From assembly GCA_019749805.1 (NCBI GenBank), contig JAIEPH010000033.1:82140-146139 (forward strand): a stretch of DNA of 64,000 nt, given 5' to 3'. Below are positions 8,063 to 46,458 of the stretch, piece after piece (positions within the stretch are counted from its first letter, which is position 1; each line of letters opens with the position of its first letter). Origin of the DNA: Mycobacteriaceae bacterium. Its GTDB lineage: Bacteria; Actinomycetota; Actinomycetes; Mycobacteriales; Mycobacteriaceae. A model generated the notes under the pieces. The model ran no database searches, was not told the DNA's origin, and saw only the letters and a list, made by a program, of their open reading frames with translations. Made by a program: the position numbers and the translations under genes.

Positions 8063-9253
8063 ATGCCAAACAAAGTTTTCGTCGTCGGCGTCGGAATGAC
8101 GAAGTTCGAAAAGCCAGGTCGCCGCGAAGGCTGGGACTATCCGGACATGGCCCGCGAGTCCGGCACCAAGGCGCTCGAGGACGCCGGCATCGACTTCACC
8201 GAGGTGCAGCAAGGCTTCGTCGGCTACTGCTCGGGCGACTCGACGTCGGGCAACCGGGCGCTCTACGAACTCGGCATGACGGGCATCCCGATCGTCAACG
8301 TGAACAACAACTGTTCGACGGGTTCGACCGCGTTGTTCCTTGCCGCGCAGACGATTCGCGGTGGTCTCGCCGACTGCACGATCGCGCTGGGCTTCGAGAA
8401 GATGCAGCCCGGTTCGTTGCAGGGCGGCGCCGAGGATCGCGAGTCACCGCTCGGCCGTCACATCAAGGCGCTGGCCGAGATCGACGAGTTCGCGTTCCCG
8501 GTCGCGCCGTGGATGTTCGCCGCCGCGGGCCGTGAGCACATGCGCCAATACGGCACCACCGCAGAGCATTTCGCAAAGATCGGCTACAAGAACCACAAGC
8601 ACTCGGTCAACAATCCGTATGCGCAGTTCCAGGAGGAATACACCCTCGACGACATCCTGGCCGCGAAGATGATCTCCGATCCGGTGACCAAGCTGCAGTG
8701 CTCGCCGACCTCCGACGGCTCGGGTGCGGCGATCCTCGCCAGCGAGGCGTTCGTCGACAAGCACGGGCTGGCTTCGCAAGCCGTGGAGATCGTCGGCCAG
8801 GCCATGACCACCGACTTCGACTCCACATTCGATGGCAGCGCCCGCAACGTCATCGGCTACGACATGAATGTGCAAGCCGCACGGCAGGTTTACGACCAGT
8901 CCGGCCTCGGCGCCGAAGACTTCCAGGTGATCGAGCTGCACGACTGCTTCTCGGCCAACGAGCTGCTGTTGTATGAGGCGCTGGGACTGTGCGGCGAGGG
9001 TGAGGCGCCCAAGCTGATCGACAACAACGACACCACCTACGGCGGGCGCTGGGTCGTCAACCCGTCGGGCGGCCTGATCTCCAAGGGGCATCCGCTCGGT
9101 GCCACGGGTCTGGCGCAGTGCGCCGAGCTCACCTGGCAGCTACGCGGTACCGCCGACAAGCGGCAGGTGGACAACGTCACCGCCGCTCTGCAACACAACA
9201 TCGGCCTGGGCGGCGCAGCCGTTGTGACCGCATACCAGCGCGCCGAGCGCTGA
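8063..9253 (+). CDS. lipid-transfer protein / thiolase-like (SCP-x thiolase family)
   Basis: [69 protein letters not shown]. Confidence 0.88.
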
Positions 9254-9576
9254 TGAGAGATACTTGGCGGGTGCGGACAACATCGATCCTCGCCGCCGGT
9301 GCCCTTGCTGTGTGCGCGCTGGCGTCAGCCGGCATCGCGTCGGCCGACGAGGGAAAATCAGCGCAGGAGACCATCCAGGATCTGCAGGACAAGGGCTACA
9401 ACGTGACGATCGACAAGATCGGTACGGCCCCGCTGTCGGATTGTGTGGTCACGAGCGTTCGCAATCCTCAGCAGTTCACCCAGTTGGTGCCGCTCCTTGG
9501 GGGCAACACCGACGGCGTGCTGTTCCCGCAGGTGATCAGCCAGCCGATCTCGGTGTCGCTGGACTGCTCGCGCTGA
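9253..9576 (+). CDS. small secreted protein
   Basis: ATG overlaps preceding stop; signal peptide; paralogous to 9635..9931. Confidence 0.65.
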   Translation: MRDTWRVRTTSILAAGALAVCALASAGIASADEGKSAQETIQDLQDKGYNVTIDKIGTAPLSDCVVTSVRNPQQFTQLVPLLGGNTDGVLFPQVISQPISVSLDCSR

Positions 9577-36573: not shown

Positions 36574-38244
36574 GTGAGCACCACCACCGCGGGGATCCTC
36601 TTCCTCGTCTCGCTCATCATCGGCCTCGCGGTCGTCCACGTGTCGCTGGGCGACTACATGTACCGGGTCTACTCCTCGGAACGTCACCTGCGCGGTGAGC
36701 GCGTCATCTACCGATTGATCGGCGCCGACCCCAAGGCCGAACAGACCTGGGGTTCCTATGCCCGCAGCGTGCTCGCGTTCTCGGCGATCAGCGTGCTGTT
36801 CCTGTTCACTGTTCAATTGGTGCAGGGCAAGCTGCCATTGCATCTCAACGACCCGGGAACCGAGATGACCCCGGCGCTGGCGTGGAACACCGCGGTCAGC
36901 TTCGTCACCAACACCAATTGGCAGGCCTATTCGGGGGAGTCGACCCAGGGCCACATGGTTCAGATGGCCGGTCTGGCCGTGCAGAACTTCGTCTCGGCGG
37001 CGGTCGGTATGGCCGTGGCGATGGCATTCGTGCGTGCACTGGCCCGCCGAGACACCACCGAGCTGGGCAACTTCTGGGTCGACCTCGTCCGCGGAGTCAT
37101 TCGGATCCTGTTGCCGCTCTCCATCATCGGCGCGATCATCCTCATCGTCGGCGGTGTAGTGCAGAACTTCGACCTGCACACGCAGATTGCCTCGACGCTG
37201 GCCGGCGGTCAGCAGACCATTCCCGGTGGCCCGGTCGCCAGCCAGGAGGTCATCAAGGAGCTCGGCACCAACGGCGGCGGGTTCTTCAACGTCAACTCCG
37301 CGCATCCGTTCGAAAACCCCACCACGTGGACGAACTGGTTCGAAATATTCTTGTTGCTGGTCATCCCATTCTCGTTGCCCAGAACATTCGGCAGGATGGT
37401 CGACAGCAAGAAGCAGGGCTATGCCATCGTCGCCGTGATGGGGGTCATCGCGACCATCAGCTGGAGCTCGATGTTGCTGTTCCAGCTGCAGGCCCACGGC
37501 ACGGTTCCCACCGCGGTCGGCGCCGCGATGGAAGGCGTGGAACAGCGCTTCGGCGTTGCGAATTCGGCCATATTTGCGGCTTCGACCACGTTGACGTCCA
37601 CCGGTGCCGTCGACTCGTTCCACGACTCCTACACCAGCCTCGGCGGCATGATGTTGTTGTTCAACATGCAGCTCGGCGAGGTCGCACCCGGCGGCGTCGG
37701 CTCGGGTCTGTACGGCATGCTCGTATTGGCGATCATCACGGTGTTCGTCGCGGGCCTGATGGTCGGCCGCACCCCGGAATACCTCGGCAAGAAGATCACA
37801 CCGCGGGAGATCAAGCTCGCGGCAACGTATTTCCTCATCACCCCGCTGATCGTGCTGACCGGCACGGCGGTCGCGATGGCGATGCCCGGTCAACGCGCGG
37901 GCATGCTCAATACCGGCCCGCACGGCCTCTCGGAAGTGCTGTACGCCTTCACCTCGGCGGGCAACAACAACGGATCGGCGTTCGCAGGCATCTCGGTCAA
38001 CACCGAGTGGTACAACACCGCACTCGGACTGGCCATGCTGTTCGGCCGGTTCCTGCCGATCCTCTTCGTGCTGGCGCTGGCCGGATCGCTGGCCAGGCAG
38101 GGCAAGACACCTGAGTCCGTCGGCACGCTGCCCACCCATCGGCCTCAGTTCGTCGGCATGGTCGCCGGCGTGACGGTGATCCTGGTCGCCTTGACCTTCC
38201 TTCCCATGCTCGCGCTGGGACCCCTTGCTGAAGGAATCCACTGA
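36574..38244 (+). CDS. kdpA: potassium-transporting ATPase subunit KdpA
   Basis: [46 protein letters not shown]. Confidence 0.96.
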
Positions 38245-38245
38245 C

Positions 38246-40390
38246 ATGTCCGTGCCCACCGTCGATTCCACTGTGCCCGCACAGCCGAAACAGAACGCGT
38301 CCAAGCGGGTTCAGGGTGGGTTGCTCGACCCGAGGATGCTGTGGAAGTCGATGCCCGACGCGCTGCGCAAGCTCGACCCGCGCACCCTGTGGCGCAATCC
38401 CGTCATGTTCATCGTCGAGATCGGCGCCGTCTGGAGCACGGTGCTCGCCGTGATGGAGCCGTCCTGGTTCGCGTGGTTGATCGTGGTCTGGCTCTGGCTC
38501 ACCGTGATTTTCGCCAATTTCGCCGAGGCCGTCGCCGAAGGACGCGGCAAGGCTCAGGCCGAGTCGCTGCGTAAGACCAAGACGGCCACGATGGCTCGGC
38601 GCCTCGTCGGCTGGGCACCGGGTACACCCGGCCGAGAGGAAGGGGTCGCCGCACCGCTGCTGCAGCAGGGCGACATCGTGGTGGTCGAAGCCGGCCAGCC
38701 CATCCCTGGCGACGGCGACGTCGTCGAAGGCATTGCCTCGGTCGACGAATCGGCGATCACCGGTGAATCCGCACCCGTCATTCGCGAGTCGGGCGGCGAC
38801 CGCTCGGCCGTCACGGGCGGTACCACCGTGCTGTCGGACCGCATCGTCGTGAAGATCACGCAGAAGCAGGGTGAGAGCTTCATCGACCGCATGATCGCGC
38901 TCGTCGAGGGTGCCAACCGGCAGAAGACGCCCAACGAGATCGCGCTCAACATCCTGCTGGCCTCGCTAACGATCATCTTCGTGTTCGCCGTCGCGACCTT
39001 GCAACCACTGGCAATCTTCTCGAAGGCCAACAATCCGGGAGTCGAGGACTCGTTGGCGCTCAACGGCAACGGCGTCAGCGGCATCGTGATGGTGGCGCTG
39101 CTGGTGTGTCTCATCCCCACCACCATCGGCGCCTTGTTGTCGGCGATCGGCATCGCCGGAATGGACCGCCTGGTGCAGCGCAATGTGCTCGCCATGTCCG
39201 GACGCGCCGTGGAGGCGGCCGGTGACGTCAACACCCTGCTGCTCGACAAGACCGGGACCATCACGCTGGGCAACCGGCAGGCCGCGGCCTTCGTGCCGCT
39301 CGCGGGCGTCACCCCCGAGATGCTTGCCGACGCGGCGCAGCTGTCCAGCCTCGCCGACGAGACGCCGGAAGGCCGCTCGATCGTCGTGTTCGCCAAGCGG
39401 GAGTACGGTCTGCGGGCACGCACCGCCGGGGAACTCGACACCGCGCACTGGATCGAATTCAGCGCCACCACACGGATGTCCGGTGTCGACCTGACGGACC
39501 ACAAGCTCCGTAAGGGCGCGGCGAGCACGGTCGCCGAATGGGTGCGCTCCGAAGGCGGCACCGTGCCGACCCAGCTCGGCGACATCGTCGACGGTGTCTC
39601 CGCCGACGGCGGTACGCCGCTGGTCGTCGGACAAGTGCAGGATGGTAAAGCCGAGGTACTCGGTGTCATCCACCTCAAGGACGTCGTCAAGCACGGCATG
39701 CGAGAACGCTTCGACGAGATGCGCCGCATGGGCATCCGCACCGTGATGATAACCGGCGACAACCCGTTGACCGCCAAGGCCATTGCCGACGAGGCTGGTG
39801 TCGACGACTTCCTCGCCGAGGCCACGCCGGAAGACAAGATGGCGCTGATCAAGAAGGAGCAGGCCGGCGGCAAGCTCGTCGCGATGACCGGTGACGGCAC
39901 CAACGACGCACCCGCGCTCGCGCAGGCCGACGTCGGCGTCGCGATGAACACCGGCACGTCGGCGGCCAAAGAGGCCGGCAACATGGTCGACCTTGATTCC
40001 GACCCGACCAAACTCATCGAGATCGTCGAGATCGGTAAGCAGCTGCTCATCACGCGCGGAGCACTGACCACGTTCTCGATTGCCAACGACATCGCCAAGT
40101 ACTTCGCGATCATCCCCGCGCTGTTCGTGGCGCTGTTCCCGGGCCTGGATCTGCTGAACATCATGCGGCTGCACAGCCCGCAGTCGGCGATCCTGTCGGC
40201 GGTGATCTTCAACGCCTTGGTCATCGTCGGGCTGATCCCGTTGTCGCTGCGCGGCGTTCGGTACACGCCGGCCAGCGCATCGAAGTTGTTGAGCCGAAAC
40301 CTCTATATCTATGGACTCGGAGGAATCATCGCGCCGTTCATCGGTATCAAGCTGATCGACCTCGTCGTACAACTCTTCCCAGGGATGTGA
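38246..40390 (+). CDS. kdpB: potassium-transporting ATPase subunit KdpB
   Basis: [53 protein letters not shown]. Confidence 0.97.
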
Positions 40391-40391
40391 C

Positions 40392-41267
40392 ATGAATCTT
40401 TCCAATCTCGGTCGCCAGCACTGGGCGGCGTTACGCGCGCTGATGGTGCTCACCGTCATCCTCGGCATCGTCTATCCGGTATTCATCTGGCTCGTGGCGC
40501 AGCTTCCCGGCCTGAACGACCAGGCCGACGGGTCGCTGATCGACGTCGACGGAAACCTGTTGGGCAGCAGCCTGATCGGCCAGTCCTTCACCGATGCCGA
40601 CGGCAACGTGCTACCGCAGTACTTCCAGAGTCGGCCGTCGGCGGCAAGCGACGGGTATGACCCAATGGCCACCAGCGCAAGCAACCTCGGTCCGGAGAGC
40701 ATCGTCGATTCACCCGACAAGCCGAGCCTGCTCACCTTGGTCTGCGAACGCAGCGCCACCGTCGGTAGGATCGAGGGTGTCGACGGCAGACGGCCGTTCT
40801 GCACCGGCGACGGTGTTGGGGCAGTGCTGTCGGTGATCGGCCCGCGCGATGCGCAGGGCAAGGTCGTGAAGCCGACCCGGGTGGTCAGCGTCAACGAACC
40901 GTGTGCGACCACGCAGACGCCGTTCCTCGACACCTACGAAGGTGTGCGCGTCGAGTGCGCGACGCCCGATGAGGATTACGGCCTCGGCCAGCTCGTGCCG
41001 ATCCGCGGCAGCGCGCCCGCCAATCCCGTCGTGCCCGCCGACGCGGTGACCGCAAGCGGAAGCGGTCTCGACCCCCACATCTCGATTCCGTACGCCGACC
41101 TTCAGGTGAGCCGGGTCGCCACGGCGCGCGGTATCAATCCCGAACGGGTTCGCGACGTGCTGGCCGCGCACACCGACGGCAGGTTCCTCGGGTTCTTCGG
41201 CGAGCCCACCGTCAACGTGCTGCTGCTCAACCTGTCCCTCGACCAGAATTATCCGACAAAAAGCTGA
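40392..41267 (+). CDS. kdpC: potassium-transporting ATPase subunit KdpC
   Basis: LIGQSFTDADGNVLPQYFQSRPSA, SGLDPHISIPYADLQVSRVA. Confidence 0.95.
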   Translation: MNLSNLGRQHWAALRALMVLTVILGIVYPVFIWLVAQLPGLNDQADGSLIDVDGNLLGSSLIGQSFTDADGNVLPQYFQSRPSAASDGYDPMATSASNLGPESIVDSPDKPSLLTLVCERSATVGRIEGVDGRRPFCTGDGVGAVLSVIGPRDAQGKVVKPTRVVSVNEPCATTQTPFLDTYEGVRVECATPDEDYGLGQLVPIRGSAPANPVVPADAVTASGSGLDPHISIPYADLQVSRVATARGINPERVRDVLAAHTDGRFLGFFGEPTVNVLLLNLSLDQNYPTKS

Positions 41268-41275
41268 CGTGACCG

Positions 41276-43813
41276 GTGGATGATGGGGTGGTGACCGACC
41301 GGCCGAGCTCCCAGAAAAAGCGCGGCGAGCTGCGCATTTATCTGGGTGCCGCGCCCGGTGTCGGGAAGACCTTCGCGATGCTCGGCGAGGCGCATCGACG
41401 GCTGGAGCGCGGCACCGACGTCGTCGCCGCGGTGGTGGAGACGCACGGCCGCAAGAAGACCGCCGACCTGATAGAGGGCATCGAGACCGTCGCGCCGAAG
41501 CTCATCAACTACCGCGGCAAGCAGTTCGCCGAACTCGACGTCGAGGCGGTGCTGCGGCGCGCACCGCAGGTCGTCCTCGTCGACGAGCTGGCGCACACCA
41601 ACACCCCGGGCAGTAGGAATGCCAAGCGGTGGCAGGACGTCGAGGAGCTGCTCGAGGCGGGCATCACCGTCATCTCCACGGTCAACGTTCAGCACCTCGA
41701 GAGCCTCAACGACGTCGTCACCCAGATCACCGGCATCGAGCAGCAGGAAAAGGTGCCCGACGAGATCGTGCGCGCCGCCGACCAGATCGAGCTCGTCGAC
41801 ATCACACCGGAGGCTTTGCGGCGCAGGCTCGCTCATGGCAATGTGTACGCACCCGAACGGGTGGACGCGGCGCTGTCCAATTACTTCCGCAGAGGCAACC
41901 TGACAGCGCTGCGCGAACTCGCCCTGCTCTGGCTCGCCGACCAGGTCGACGCCGCGCTGGAGAAGTACCGCGAAGAGAACCAGATCACCGCGACCTGGGA
42001 GGCCCGCGAACGCGTCGTCGTCGCGGTCACCGGAGGTGCGGAGTCGGAAACGCTGGTGCGCAGAGCATCTCGCATCGCCTCGAAGTCCAGCGCCGAGCTG
42101 ATGATCGTGCACGTGGCCCGCGGCGACGGGCTGTCCGGTGTCTCGGCATCACAGATGGGCACCGTGCGGGAGCTGGCGGCCAGCCTCGGTGCGACCCTGC
42201 ACACCGTCGTCGGCGACGACGTGCCCAGTGCGCTATTGGATTTCGCCCGTGACGAGAACGCGACACAGCTGGTCCTCGGCACGTCGAGGCGGTCTCGCTG
42301 GGCCCGGATGTTCGACGAGGGTATCGGCGCGAGCGTGGTGCAGCAGTCAGGCCCCATCGATGTCCATATGGTCACCCACCCCGAAGCACGTAAGGAGTCG
42401 TTGTGGTCGCGAATCTCACCGCGCCAGCGCCACCTCACGTCGTGGCCCGCAGCTGTCGTGGTTCCGTCCGCAGTCTGTGCGCTACTGGTCTTCCTGCTCG
42501 ACCCATTCCTGGGCGTGGGCGGCGAGAGTGCGCTGTTCTTCATCGGTGTTCTCGTCGTAGCCCTTCTCGGCGGCGTCGCACCCGCAGCGCTGTCAGCCGT
42601 GCTTTCCGGCGTGCTGCTCAACTACTTCCTGATCGAACCCCGCCACACATTCACGATCGCTGAACCTGACAACGCGATCACCATCGTGGTCCTGCTGTTC
42701 GTCGCCGTTGCTGTTGCTGCACTGGTCGACAATGCCGCCAAGCGCACTCGTGAGGCTCGCCAAGCGTCCCAGGAGGCCGAACTGCTGGCGTTGTTCTCGG
42801 GCTCGGTGCTGCGCGGCGCCGATCTCGACACGCTGCTGGAGCGAGTCCGTGAGACGTATTCGCAACGGGCCGTGAGCTTGCTGCGCGCGAACGAGGGAAT
42901 CGTCGCTTGTGTCGGCGACGACCCGTGTGTGGACGTCGATTCGGCGGACACCGCAATCGAAGTCGGTGACGACGAATTCTGGATGTTGACGGCCGGACGC
43001 AAGCTGGCCGCCCGCGATCGCCGGGTGCTCACCGCCGTGGCGATGCAAGCGGCGGGGTTGGTGCGGCAGCGCGAACTCAGTGAGGAAGCCGGTAAAGCCG
43101 AAGCCATCGCGAGGGCCGACGAACTGCGGCGCTCACTGTTGTCCGCCGTCAGTCACGACCTGCGCACTCCCCTGGCCGCGGCCAAGGCCGCCGTGTCGAG
43201 TCTGCGCAGCGACGACGTCGACTTCTCCGCCGAGGACACCGCCGAACTGCTGGCAACCATCGAGGAGTCGATCGATCAGCTGACCGCGCTGGTCGGCAAT
43301 CTGCTGGACTCGTCGCGACTGGCCGCCGGTGTGCTGAAGCCCGAACTGGGCCCGGTGTATCTGGAGGAGACCGTGCAGCGGGCGATTCTCGGAATCCGCA
43401 AGGGAAACACGGGTTTCCGGCGCCGCGGCCTGGACCGGGTCAAGGTCGACGTCGCCAGCAGCGGAGCGGGTGCGGTGGTCATGGCCGACGCCGGCCTGCT
43501 GGAGCGGGTGCTGGCCAACTTGATCGATAACGCGCTGCGGTACGCCCCGGACAGCCCGGTGCGCGTGACCGCGGGGCAGGTCGGCGACCGGGTGCTTATC
43601 GCCGTCGTCGACGAAGGTCCCGGCATCCCACGCGGCACCGAGGAGCAGCTGTTCGCCCCGTTCCAGCGCCTCGGCGACCACGACACCAGCATCGGTGTCG
43701 GCCTCGGCCTTTCAGTCGCCCGCGGCTTCGTAGAGGCCATGGGTGGCACGATCTCGGCAACCGACACCCCCGGCGGTGGGCTCACGGTCGAAATCGATTT
43801 GGCGGCGGTATGA
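41276..43813 (+). CDS. kdpD: sensor histidine kinase KdpD
   Basis: GAAPGVGKTFAML, VVLVDELAHTN, Usp domain, DUF4118 TM region, SHDLRTPLAAAKAA, NLIDNALRYAP; start may be GTG 41291. Confidence 0.95.
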   Translation: MDDGVVTDRPSSQKKRGELRIYLGAAPGVGKTFAMLGEAHRRLERGTDVVAAVVETHGRKKTADLIEGIETVAPKLINYRGKQFAELDVEAVLRRAPQVVLVDELAHTNTPGSRNAKRWQDVEELLEAGITVISTVNVQHLESLNDVVTQITGIEQQEKVPDEIVRAADQIELVDITPEALRRRLAHGNVYAPERVDAALSNYFRRGNLTALRELALLWLADQVDAALEKYREENQITATWEARERVVVAVTGGAESETLVRRASRIASKSSAELMIVHVARGDGLSGVSASQMGTVRELAASLGATLHTVVGDDVPSALLDFARDENATQLVLGTSRRSRWARMFDEGIGASVVQQSGPIDVHMVTHPEARKESLWSRISPRQRHLTSWPAAVVVPSAVCALLVFLLDPFLGVGGESALFFIGVLVVALLGGVAPAALSAVLSGVLLNYFLIEPRHTFTIAEPDNAITIVVLLFVAVAVAALVDNAAKRTREARQASQEAELLALFSGSVLRGADLDTLLERVRETYSQRAVSLLRANEGIVACVGDDPCVDVDSADTAIEVGDDEFWMLTAGRKLAARDRRVLTAVAMQAAGLVRQRELSEEAGKAEAIARADELRRSLLSAVSHDLRTPLAAAKAAVSSLRSDDVDFSAEDTAELLATIEESIDQLTALVGNLLDSSRLAAGVLKPELGPVYLEETVQRAILGIRKGNTGFRRRGLDRVKVDVASSGAGAVVMADAGLLERVLANLIDNALRYAPDSPVRVTAGQVGDRVLIAVVDEGPGIPRGTEEQLFAPFQRLGDHDTSIGVGLGLSVARGFVEAMGGTISATDTPGGGLTVEIDLAAV

Positions 43814-44499
43814 CGACGAAAACCCGGGTCCTCGTCATCGACGATGAACCGCAGATCCTACGGGCACTACGAATCAACCTGTCGGTGCGCGGCTACGAGG
43901 TGTTCACCGCCGCCAGCGGCACGGAGGCACTGAAGCAGGCCGCCGATCACAAACCCGACGTCATCGTGCTGGACCTCGGACTGCCCGACATGTCGGGCAT
44001 CGACGTGCTCGGCGGGCTGCGCGGCTGGCTGACCGCACCGGTTATCGTGCTCTCGGCCAGGACCGACTCATCGGACAAGGTCGAGGCGCTGGACGCAGGC
44101 GCCGACGACTACGTCACCAAACCCTTTGGCATGGACGAGTTCCTGGCCCGGCTCCGCGCGGCAGTGCGGCGAGCCACGGCATCCTCGGAAATCGACGAAC
44201 CCGTGATCGAGACGTCGTCGTTCACGGTCGACCTGACGGCCAAGAAGGTGACCAAGAACGGCACGGAGGTGCATCTCACCCCGACCGAGTGGGGCATGCT
44301 CGAGATGCTGGTGCGCAATCGCGGCAAACTCGTCGGCCGCGAAGAACTCCTCAAGGAGGTGTGGGGTCCGGCCTACGCGAAGGAAACCCATTATCTACGT
44401 GTGTATTTGGCGGCGCTACGGCGCAAACTCGAGGACGATCCGTCGCATCCCGTGCACCTGCTGACCGAAGCCGGCATGGGCTACCGCTTCCAGCAGTAG
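43810..44499 (+). CDS. kdpE: response regulator KdpE
   Basis: VIDDEPQILRALRINLSVRGYEV, LDLGLPDMSG, winged helix with GRE.LLKEVWGPAYAKETHYLRVYLAALRRKLE. Confidence 0.95.
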   Translation: MTTKTRVLVIDDEPQILRALRINLSVRGYEVFTAASGTEALKQAADHKPDVIVLDLGLPDMSGIDVLGGLRGWLTAPVIVLSARTDSSDKVEALDAGADDYVTKPFGMDEFLARLRAAVRRATASSEIDEPVIETSSFTVDLTAKKVTKNGTEVHLTPTEWGMLEMLVRNRGKLVGREELLKEVWGPAYAKETHYLRVYLAALRRKLEDDPSHPVHLLTEAGMGYRFQQ

Positions 44500-44534: not shown

Positions 44535-46364
44535 ATGCTGAGGGCGGTTGTGGATGATGGAGTGGTGAGCATTCTCGGCCGGAAGCGAGGCGACCTGCGC
44601 GTTTACCTGGGTGCCGCCCCCGGGGTCGGCAAGACCTACTCGATGCTCGCCGAGGCGCACCGGCGGATGGAACGCGGAACCGACGTGGTCGCCGCGGTGA
44701 TCGAAACCCATGGACGCCGCAGGACGACCCAGCAGCTTGCCGGCATCGAGGTGATTTCGCCACGATTCGTCGAGTACCAGGGCGACCGCTATCCGGAGCT
44801 CGACGTCGATGCGGTGCTGGCAAGACGGCCTCAGGTGGTGCTCATCGACGACCTCGCCCACACCAACACCCCGGGCAGCGAGAACGCCAATCGATGGCAG
44901 GACGTCGAGCAGTTCCTCAACGCGGGCATCACGGTGATCACCACCGTGAACGTGCAGCACCTGGAGAGCCTCAACGACGTCGTCACCCAGATCACCGGAG
45001 TCGAACACAAGGAGCGGATCCCCGACGAGATCGTCCGCTCCGCCGACCAGATCGAGCTGGTGGACATCACGCCGGAGGCTTTGCGGCGCAGGCTCGTTCA
45101 CGGCAACGTGTATCCGCCCGAACATGTCGAAGCCGCACTGTCCAACTATTTCCGACCCGGAAACCTCAACGCACTCCGACAATTAGCGCTGTTATGGCTG
45201 GCCGACCAGGTTGATGCCGCGCTAGCCAAGTACCGCGCTGACAAGAACATCACCGACACCTGGGAGGCCCGGGAGCGGGTGGTCGTGGGCGTCACCGGTG
45301 GCGACGAGTCGGAGACGCTGGTGCGCAGGGCGTCGCGGATCGCGTCGAGGTGCCGTGCCGAACTCAAGGTCGTGCATGTCATCCAGGGCGACGGCCTGAC
45401 CAGCATCTCGTCGCAACAGAAGCGCGCGATTCGCGGGCTCGCCGCCAGCCTGGGCGCCACGATGCACACTGTCGTCGGCGACGACGTGGCCACCACGTTG
45501 CTCGATTTCGCCCGCGACGCGAACGCCACGCAACTCGTACTCGGCTCCTCTCGACGCTCGCGGTGGGCGCGGGTCTTCGACGAGGGAATCGGCGCCAAGG
45601 TCGTCCAGCAGTCGGGCTCGATCGACGTGCACATGGTGACCCATCCCGAGGCGCGCAGCGGGATGTCGCTGACGAGGTTGTCACGTGGATGCCGCCGCGT
45701 GGTGTCCTGGCTGGCCGGCCTGGCGATCCCGTTGGCGATCCTCGGGGTGACGATGTCCCTACCCGAAGAGATATTGGGCATCGGCGGTCAAAGTGCCCTG
45801 TTCTTCACCGGCGTACTGGTCGTCGCGCTCCTTGGCGGCATCGCGCCTGCCCTGTTGTCTGCGGTGGTCTCTGGACTGTTGCTCCTTTACTTCCTGGTGA
45901 CTCCGCTGTACACGTTGACGACTGACGATCCGGACGGCGCGATCACCATCGTCGTCCTGTTACTGGTCGCCATAACGGTGGCCGCGCTGATCGACCGGGT
46001 GGCCAACCGCGCCGCCGAGGCGCGACGGTCATCTCAGGAAGCCGAGCTGCTCGCTGTGTTCGCCGATTCCGTGCTGCGCGACGCCGATCTCGACACGTTG
46101 CTGGAGCGGATTCGCGAAGCGTATTCCCAACGCGCCGTGAGCATGTTGGCGGTGCGTAGCGACGAACGGACCGGTGATGTCGTCGCGTCGGCCGGCAAGA
46201 ACCCCTGCACCAGCGTCGACAGTGCCGACACCGCCATCGATGTCGGTGACGGCGAGTTCTGGATGCTGTTGGCAGGCAAGACTTTGACCACCCGCGACCG
46301 GCGCGTCCTGAGCGCCGTCGCCATACAAGCGGTCAACATGCTCAAACAGCGAACTGGAACCTAG
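44535..46364 (+). CDS. kinase-less KdpD paralogue (KdpD N-terminal + Usp + DUF4118 + GAF-like domain)
   Basis: Collinear with KdpD through the DRRVLSAVAIQAVNML segment, then stops; no DHp/HATPase. Start 44535 or GTG 44562/44565. Confidence 0.88.
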   Translation: MLRAVVDDGVVSILGRKRGDLRVYLGAAPGVGKTYSMLAEAHRRMERGTDVVAAVIETHGRRRTTQQLAGIEVISPRFVEYQGDRYPELDVDAVLARRPQVVLIDDLAHTNTPGSENANRWQDVEQFLNAGITVITTVNVQHLESLNDVVTQITGVEHKERIPDEIVRSADQIELVDITPEALRRRLVHGNVYPPEHVEAALSNYFRPGNLNALRQLALLWLADQVDAALAKYRADKNITDTWEARERVVVGVTGGDESETLVRRASRIASRCRAELKVVHVIQGDGLTSISSQQKRAIRGLAASLGATMHTVVGDDVATTLLDFARDANATQLVLGSSRRSRWARVFDEGIGAKVVQQSGSIDVHMVTHPEARSGMSLTRLSRGCRRVVSWLAGLAIPLAILGVTMSLPEEILGIGGQSALFFTGVLVVALLGGIAPALLSAVVSGLLLLYFLVTPLYTLTTDDPDGAITIVVLLLVAITVAALIDRVANRAAEARRSSQEAELLAVFADSVLRDADLDTLLERIREAYSQRAVSMLAVRSDERTGDVVASAGKNPCTSVDSADTAIDVGDGEFWMLLAGKTLTTRDRRVLSAVAIQAVNMLKQRTGT

Positions 46365-46395: not shown

Positions 46396-46458
46396 GCGCG
46401 AGCAGACCCAAAAGGCCCGACACGCCGAGAATTTGGGCACATTTGCGTCTGCTCGCGC
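46396..46458. terminator. Long palindrome / bidirectional terminator
   Basis: Arms gcgcgagcagacccaaa / tttgcgtctgctcgcgc (17 bp, one mismatch) with 29-nt loop between convergent genes. Confidence 0.6.

Follow-up and report, generated by a model that had tools for sequence, protein, structure and literature searches.

What could a KdpD that lacks its histidine kinase do directly behind an intact kdpDE pair? Recent work has shown that KdpD combines two kinases in a single protein, and the kdp locus of the window, by which we mean the whole 64,000-nucleotide stretch analysed here (contig JAIEPH010000033.1 of a Mycobacteriaceae bacterium), carries a full-length kdpD followed by a second KdpD-type gene without the histidine kinase. 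The initial annotation took this gene to be a maintained paralogue that arose by tandem duplication and might act on KdpD or sequester a ligand. The features on which our analysis draws are:

36574..38244, + strand: kdpA (orthologues mapped)
38246..40390, + strand: kdpB, with a TGES motif whose Ser175 (38768-38770) corresponds to Ser162 of E. coli, where phosphorylation is inhibitory
40392..41267, + strand: kdpC (orthologues mapped)
41276..43813, + strand: full-length kdpD with two intact active sites
43810..44499, + strand: kdpE
44535..46364, + strand: kdpD-type ORF without histidine kinase ("Dn"), at most 609 residues, stop at 46364
44610..44636, + strand: Walker A of the kinase-less copy, GAAPGVGKT, invariant in 12/12 such copies
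44847..44852, + strand: Walker B Asp105-Asp106 of the kinase-less copy, Asp106 lying at the position of E. coli Glu110
44889..44891, + strand: Asn119 of the kinase-less copy, replacing Lys (E. coli K123)
45273..45614, + strand: Usp domain of the kinase-less copy (Pfam), without the SXS-X20-FTAXY c-di-AMP motif
45708..46028, + strand: DUF4118 four-helix membrane region of the kinase-less copy (Pfam, AF2 model)
46086..46355, + strand: GAF-like segment of the kinase-less copy, whose last helix would lead into DHp (AF2 model)
46396..46458, no strand assigned: strong hairpin between the kinase-less copy and a convergent DUF309 gene (z -4.3, -37 kcal/mol)

A KdpD-type protein that ends before the histidine kinase

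The kinase-less copy forms a single uninterrupted frame across 44535-46364, within which orthologue alignment favours GTG 44565 over ATG 44535 as the most likely conserved start, GTG 44550 also being possible. Its product is collinear with the window KdpD, 417 of 604 residues being identical (69%), and Pfam assigns it a KdpD domain (residues 17-226; PF02702 at 315.5 bits against a curated cut-off of 26.1), a Usp domain (247-360) and DUF4118 (392-498). HisKA and HATPase_c, both present in the window KdpD, are absent from its Pfam profile, so that it lacks the DHp and HATPase domains that define a KdpD histidine kinase; the layout is KdpD domain–Usp–4TM–GAF-like, ending at the helix before DHp. 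Because confidence in the whole-protein AF2 model is low (pLDDT 56), we used the model for the GAF-like segment alone (about 70-86), where a GAF-like fold (518-607) closes with a helix at 586-607 of 609 residues. A tblastn search 3' of the gene found no histidine-kinase remnant (best chance match E=0.78), and a kinase displaced there by a frameshift, which the initial annotation had named as a finding that would undo its reading, was rejected. The collinear paralogue and its clean end before DHp are thus both borne out, and the gene and its full-length neighbour are the only two KdpD-domain genes in their genome.

In every sampled carrier the kinase-less copy lies immediately 3' of kdpE, nearly always across a gap of ~10-70 nt. 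Its position directly downstream of kdpE makes it probable that the protein is co-produced with the Kdp pump; in M. smegmatis, kdpFABCDE is a single transcript at low K+ (PMC5401905). The hairpin at 46396-46458 is likely a terminator that serves both the kinase-less copy and the DUF309 gene. M. barrassiae has a closely similar hairpin directly after kdpE (L066 ~9225-9300), and genomes G126 and G147 lack it. In M. neglectum, ~320 nt without a match in the window separate kdpE from the kinase-less copy (L033 6947-7270), and this stretch may encode a short peptide.

The start context that the window kdpD and the kinase-less copy have in common is real, but as a sign of recent tandem duplication it fails: the context is present at 70 of 110 distinct mycobacterial kdpD-type starts and is therefore no evidence for such an event. 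At kdpD-type starts, ATGATGN5RTGA forms a mini-ORF of four codons that ends in a stop overlapping the GTG start (GTGA; window 41276-41300 and 44550-44570), an arrangement that may reflect translational coupling; the background frequency of the pattern is ~0.04 per kb per strand across the compared loci (L033-L133).

S. aureus KdpD binds c-di-AMP via an SXS-X20-FTAXY motif (PMC4686210). Neither the window KdpD nor the kinase-less copy has this motif, TGG and ELKVVHV occupying the motif positions, and we consequently rejected the suggestion that the copy is a c-di-AMP sink acting through it. Binding through the known motif is not supported by these sequences, and binding by other means is possible.

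Occurrence and selection

A kinase-less copy directly after kdpE was found in 11 of 396 sampled Mycobacterium genomes (E<=1e-275), the window genome included, a count to be read as a minimum, since copies of greater divergence might fall below the threshold. The other carriers are G171 (M. neglectum), G097 (M. frederiksbergense LB 501T), G188 (sp. P9-22), G317 (M. aurum), G389 (M. bacteremicum) and G353 (M. neoaurum), these names being inferred, together with G034, G179, G199 and G201; Mycobacterium sp. Root265 is a twelfth. All 12 copies stop within a few codons of one common position. Judged from the matches listed and from open-frame lengths, 151 genomes from across the family hold no comparable pair of kdpD and kinase-less copy. 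Presence is patchy even among close relatives: G147, whose KdpE is 98% identical, has an ordinary KdpD and no kinase-less copy, and the gene is therefore dispensable.

Across eight pairs, pairwise dN/dS of the kinase-less copy is 0.10-0.23 and that of the sensor halves of the paired KdpDs 0.06-0.18; the membrane region of the copy is its least constrained part (up to 0.4). The copy is under purifying selection, with weaker constraint than KdpD, and values in this range count against simple decay. Since orthologues in at least 11 other species share the same end and dN/dS is well below 1, the gene is maintained, as the initial annotation had argued from its clean boundary, and the idea that it occurs in this strain only can be put aside.

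An old second lineage of mycobacterial KdpD

To place the gene we built a tree of 112 sensor halves, comprising the 12 kinase-less copies, the full-length KdpDs of G126 and G278, those of G069 and G232, whose genomes lack KdpB, and 96 ordinary KdpDs. The first three groups form one clade (99%), outside which lie all 96 ordinary KdpDs, the window's own among them, and the two sensor lineages split at 99-100% support. The kinase-less copy is nearer to full-length KdpDs of other species than to the KdpD encoded beside it. Its clade stands apart from the window KdpD, which rejects a recent tandem duplication of the neighbouring kdpD as its origin; on the evidence of the tree it is a member of an old second mycobacterial KdpD lineage that includes full-length proteins.

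Within this lineage the copies of the window and of M. neglectum are placed with the full-length G126 and G278 proteins, and a topology in which the kinase-less copies are monophyletic without these two can be discarded (AU p=0.004). Two explanations would fit: the truncation occurred on two occasions, or a sensor of this lineage was recombined onto an intact kinase. G126 and G278 each have a single KdpD in the kdp operon, and in it a second-lineage sensor half is joined to an intact kinase. G126 is closely related to the window genome (KdpE 98.7% identical), and its only kdpD (L034 8124-10775) is a mosaic whose sensor and DHp are of the second lineage and whose CA domain is of the window type, with nucleotide identity to the window kdpD of ~73% before a breakpoint at ~43480 (window coordinates) and 92-97% after it. 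Judging from such sequences, the kdp locus recombines. Between the window and M. neglectum, synonymous divergence is lower in the kinase-less copy (0.26) than in kdpB, kdpE and the acyl-CoA synthetase-like gene downstream (0.50-0.74), which suggests that the copy probably moved between lineages by horizontal exchange after the species split.

The full-length KdpDs of the KdpB-less genomes G069 (M. elephantis; L039 5142-7709) and G232 (L125/L133) have altered H-boxes (SAVNHGLRTP and SSVAHGLRTP) and an Asp-Asp Walker B, and their genes adjoin the same DUF309, hydrolase and acyl-CoA synthetase-like genes as the window kdp locus.

ATP-site residues of the serine kinase are kept and the catalytic Glu is often altered

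In E. coli, KdpD shuts the pump off at high K+ through its N-terminal domain, a serine kinase whose target is KdpB Ser162; this phosphorylation persists when KdpD lacks DHp-CA (PMC11018627), which gives the kinase-less copy a possible output of its own. Its potential target is in place, the site around Ser175 of the window KdpB (TGES) being identical to that of E. coli Ser162. The residues of the atypical KdpD serine kinase that hold ATP are likewise present: Walker A, the Mg-binding Walker B Asp103 and the adenine-contacting Arg184 (window KdpD numbering) are kept in all 12 copies.

The Walker B Glu (E. coli E110) is not so kept. Its replacement by Ala abolishes serine-kinase activity in E. 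coli, in a study that does not report Glu-to-Asp (PMC11018627). Seven of the 12 copies, including the window's, have Asp and five have Glu, with at least 5 changes at position 104 on the tree of copies; that the position is only ever Glu or Asp argues against total loss of function. Glu is found in 98 of 98 full-length mycobacterial KdpDs, namely the 96 ordinary ones and those of G126 and G278, all of which we take to serve a pump (mapped beside the gene for the operons examined rather than row by row), and also in E. coli, D. radiodurans, six other distant KdpDs and 15 actinobacterial KdpDs (two mycobacterial). Both KdpDs from the KdpB-less genomes have Asp.

Thirteen residues past the catalytic Glu, Lys117 is kept in the same 98 of 98 and lost in 12 of 12 copies and in both pump-less orphans; we downgraded this loss as a signature, the residue being R, E or H in 4 distant actinobacterial KdpDs. 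Another candidate, R80 (E. coli R86; 98/98 KdpDs vs 0/12 copies), was dropped as it is G or K elsewhere. The second-lineage KdpDs of G126 and G278 retain both the canonical Glu and the canonical Lys. At the 76 alignment columns whose conservation extends to E. coli and Pseudomonas, 71 of 912 cells deviate in the copies and none in the paired KdpDs. We read these patterns as suggesting a P-loop domain that still handles ATP and whose catalysis toward KdpB may be relaxed or retuned.

What the kinase-less copy may do

Rather than being a broken gene, the kinase-less copy probably regulates the pump or its sensor. As judged from its domains it is membrane-bound and can probably bind ATP, and it cannot phosphorylate KdpE. 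The reading that we favour, though tentatively, is that of an accessory, ATP-binding and retuned KdpD made together with the pump, which would modulate KdpFABC or KdpD after translation. Its N-terminal P-loop domain would engage KdpB and/or KdpD and set the strength of pump inhibition upon K+ return, in the manner of KdpD's built-in serine kinase but retuned or weakly active; co-expression, binding partner and direction of effect are what we infer here. This role is consistent with the position next to kdpE, the intact KdpB site, the kept ATP-site residues and the low dN/dS, with the retention of TM and GAF regions that a bare serine kinase would not need, and with the G126 and G278 sensors, which have canonical Glu and Lys and sit on an intact kinase. 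Against it stand the Glu-to-Asp change in 7/12 copies, the loss of Lys117 in all, the patchy presence, and a resident KdpD whose serine-kinase site is already intact.

It is possible, if on the unlikely side, that the protein is instead a double pseudo-kinase, its histidine kinase lost and its serine-kinase site weakened, which competes with KdpD for KdpB (or for KdpD/KdpE) and so shields the pump from shut-off. To our knowledge, no such anti-inhibitor is known in Kdp regulation.

We likewise give only a minor chance to an active stand-alone KdpB serine kinase, a plain extra brake like the histidine-kinase-less KdpDs of Deinococcus. The architecture class is that of the DHp-CA-truncated KdpDs (PMC11018627), the ATP-site residues and the KdpB target are intact, and Asp could serve as the carboxylate base. 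However, D. radiodurans and other histidine-kinase-less short KdpDs keep Glu110 and Lys123, the very residues that are Asp in 7/12 and lost in 12/12 of the copies, and the same positions are altered in the two full-length KdpDs from KdpB-less genomes, which fits a relaxed need for KdpB phosphorylation.

More doubtful is a modulator of the KdpD histidine kinase, which through membrane/GAF pairing or KdpE scaffolding would change kdpFABC transcription. The membrane and GAF parts have been kept under selection, a partner of the same family is encoded alongside, and in E. coli the N-terminal region of KdpD contributes to KdpD/KdpE scaffolding (PMC2714519); yet the copy has lost DHp, through which histidine kinases mainly dimerise, and the membrane region evolves fastest. 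Finally, the gene could be left over from a displaced kdpD, decaying slowly or neutral and maintained through recombination. This would suit the patchy presence, a dN/dS above KdpD's in most pairs, the altered active-site residues and a locus that recombines (the G126 mosaic), but is very improbable given an intact 1.8-kb ORF with the same end in 12 species, dN/dS well below 1, and an invariant Walker A and carboxylate at 104.

Whichever role applies, these species form a natural set in which one KdpD lacks the histidine kinase and has an altered serine-kinase site beside an intact KdpD, and in which two relatives (G126, G278) use the same sensor lineage to drive an intact kinase. The set, which supplies natural Glu-to-Asp Walker B variants, allows one to ask directly which residues serve the pump and whether Kdp has a dedicated modulator.

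Relation to known KdpD proteins

KdpDs without a histidine kinase are already known; the literature searched contained no description of the mycobacterial arrangement with a full-length KdpD or of a second mycobacterial KdpD. Other KdpD variants beside full-length KdpD have been noted in some species and were left out of the analysis there (PMC11018627). KdpD of the KdpDE systems of E. coli and M. smegmatis shares with the copy the serine-kinase domain, Usp, four TM helices, GAF and the kdp locus, whereas the copy is without DHp and CA and has the catalytic Glu and neighbouring Lys altered. The short KdpDs of Deinococcus and cyanobacteria (NF038185, KdpD_non_kinase) also lack the histidine kinase and lie beside pump genes, but consist only of KdpD and Usp domains, often beside a separate histidine-kinase chain; the copy keeps TM and GAF, coexists with full-length KdpD, has an altered Walker B, and scores 371.4 bits against the family's cut-off of 550. 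The DHp-CA-truncated KdpDs of Campylobacterota and Archaea belong to the same truncation class, yet unlike the copy they occur mostly without KdpE, as the sole KdpD (PMC11018627). S. aureus KdpD2 resembles the copy in being a second KdpD in its genome, and differs in belonging to a second complete Kdp system and in binding c-di-AMP through a motif that the copy lacks (PMC4686210).
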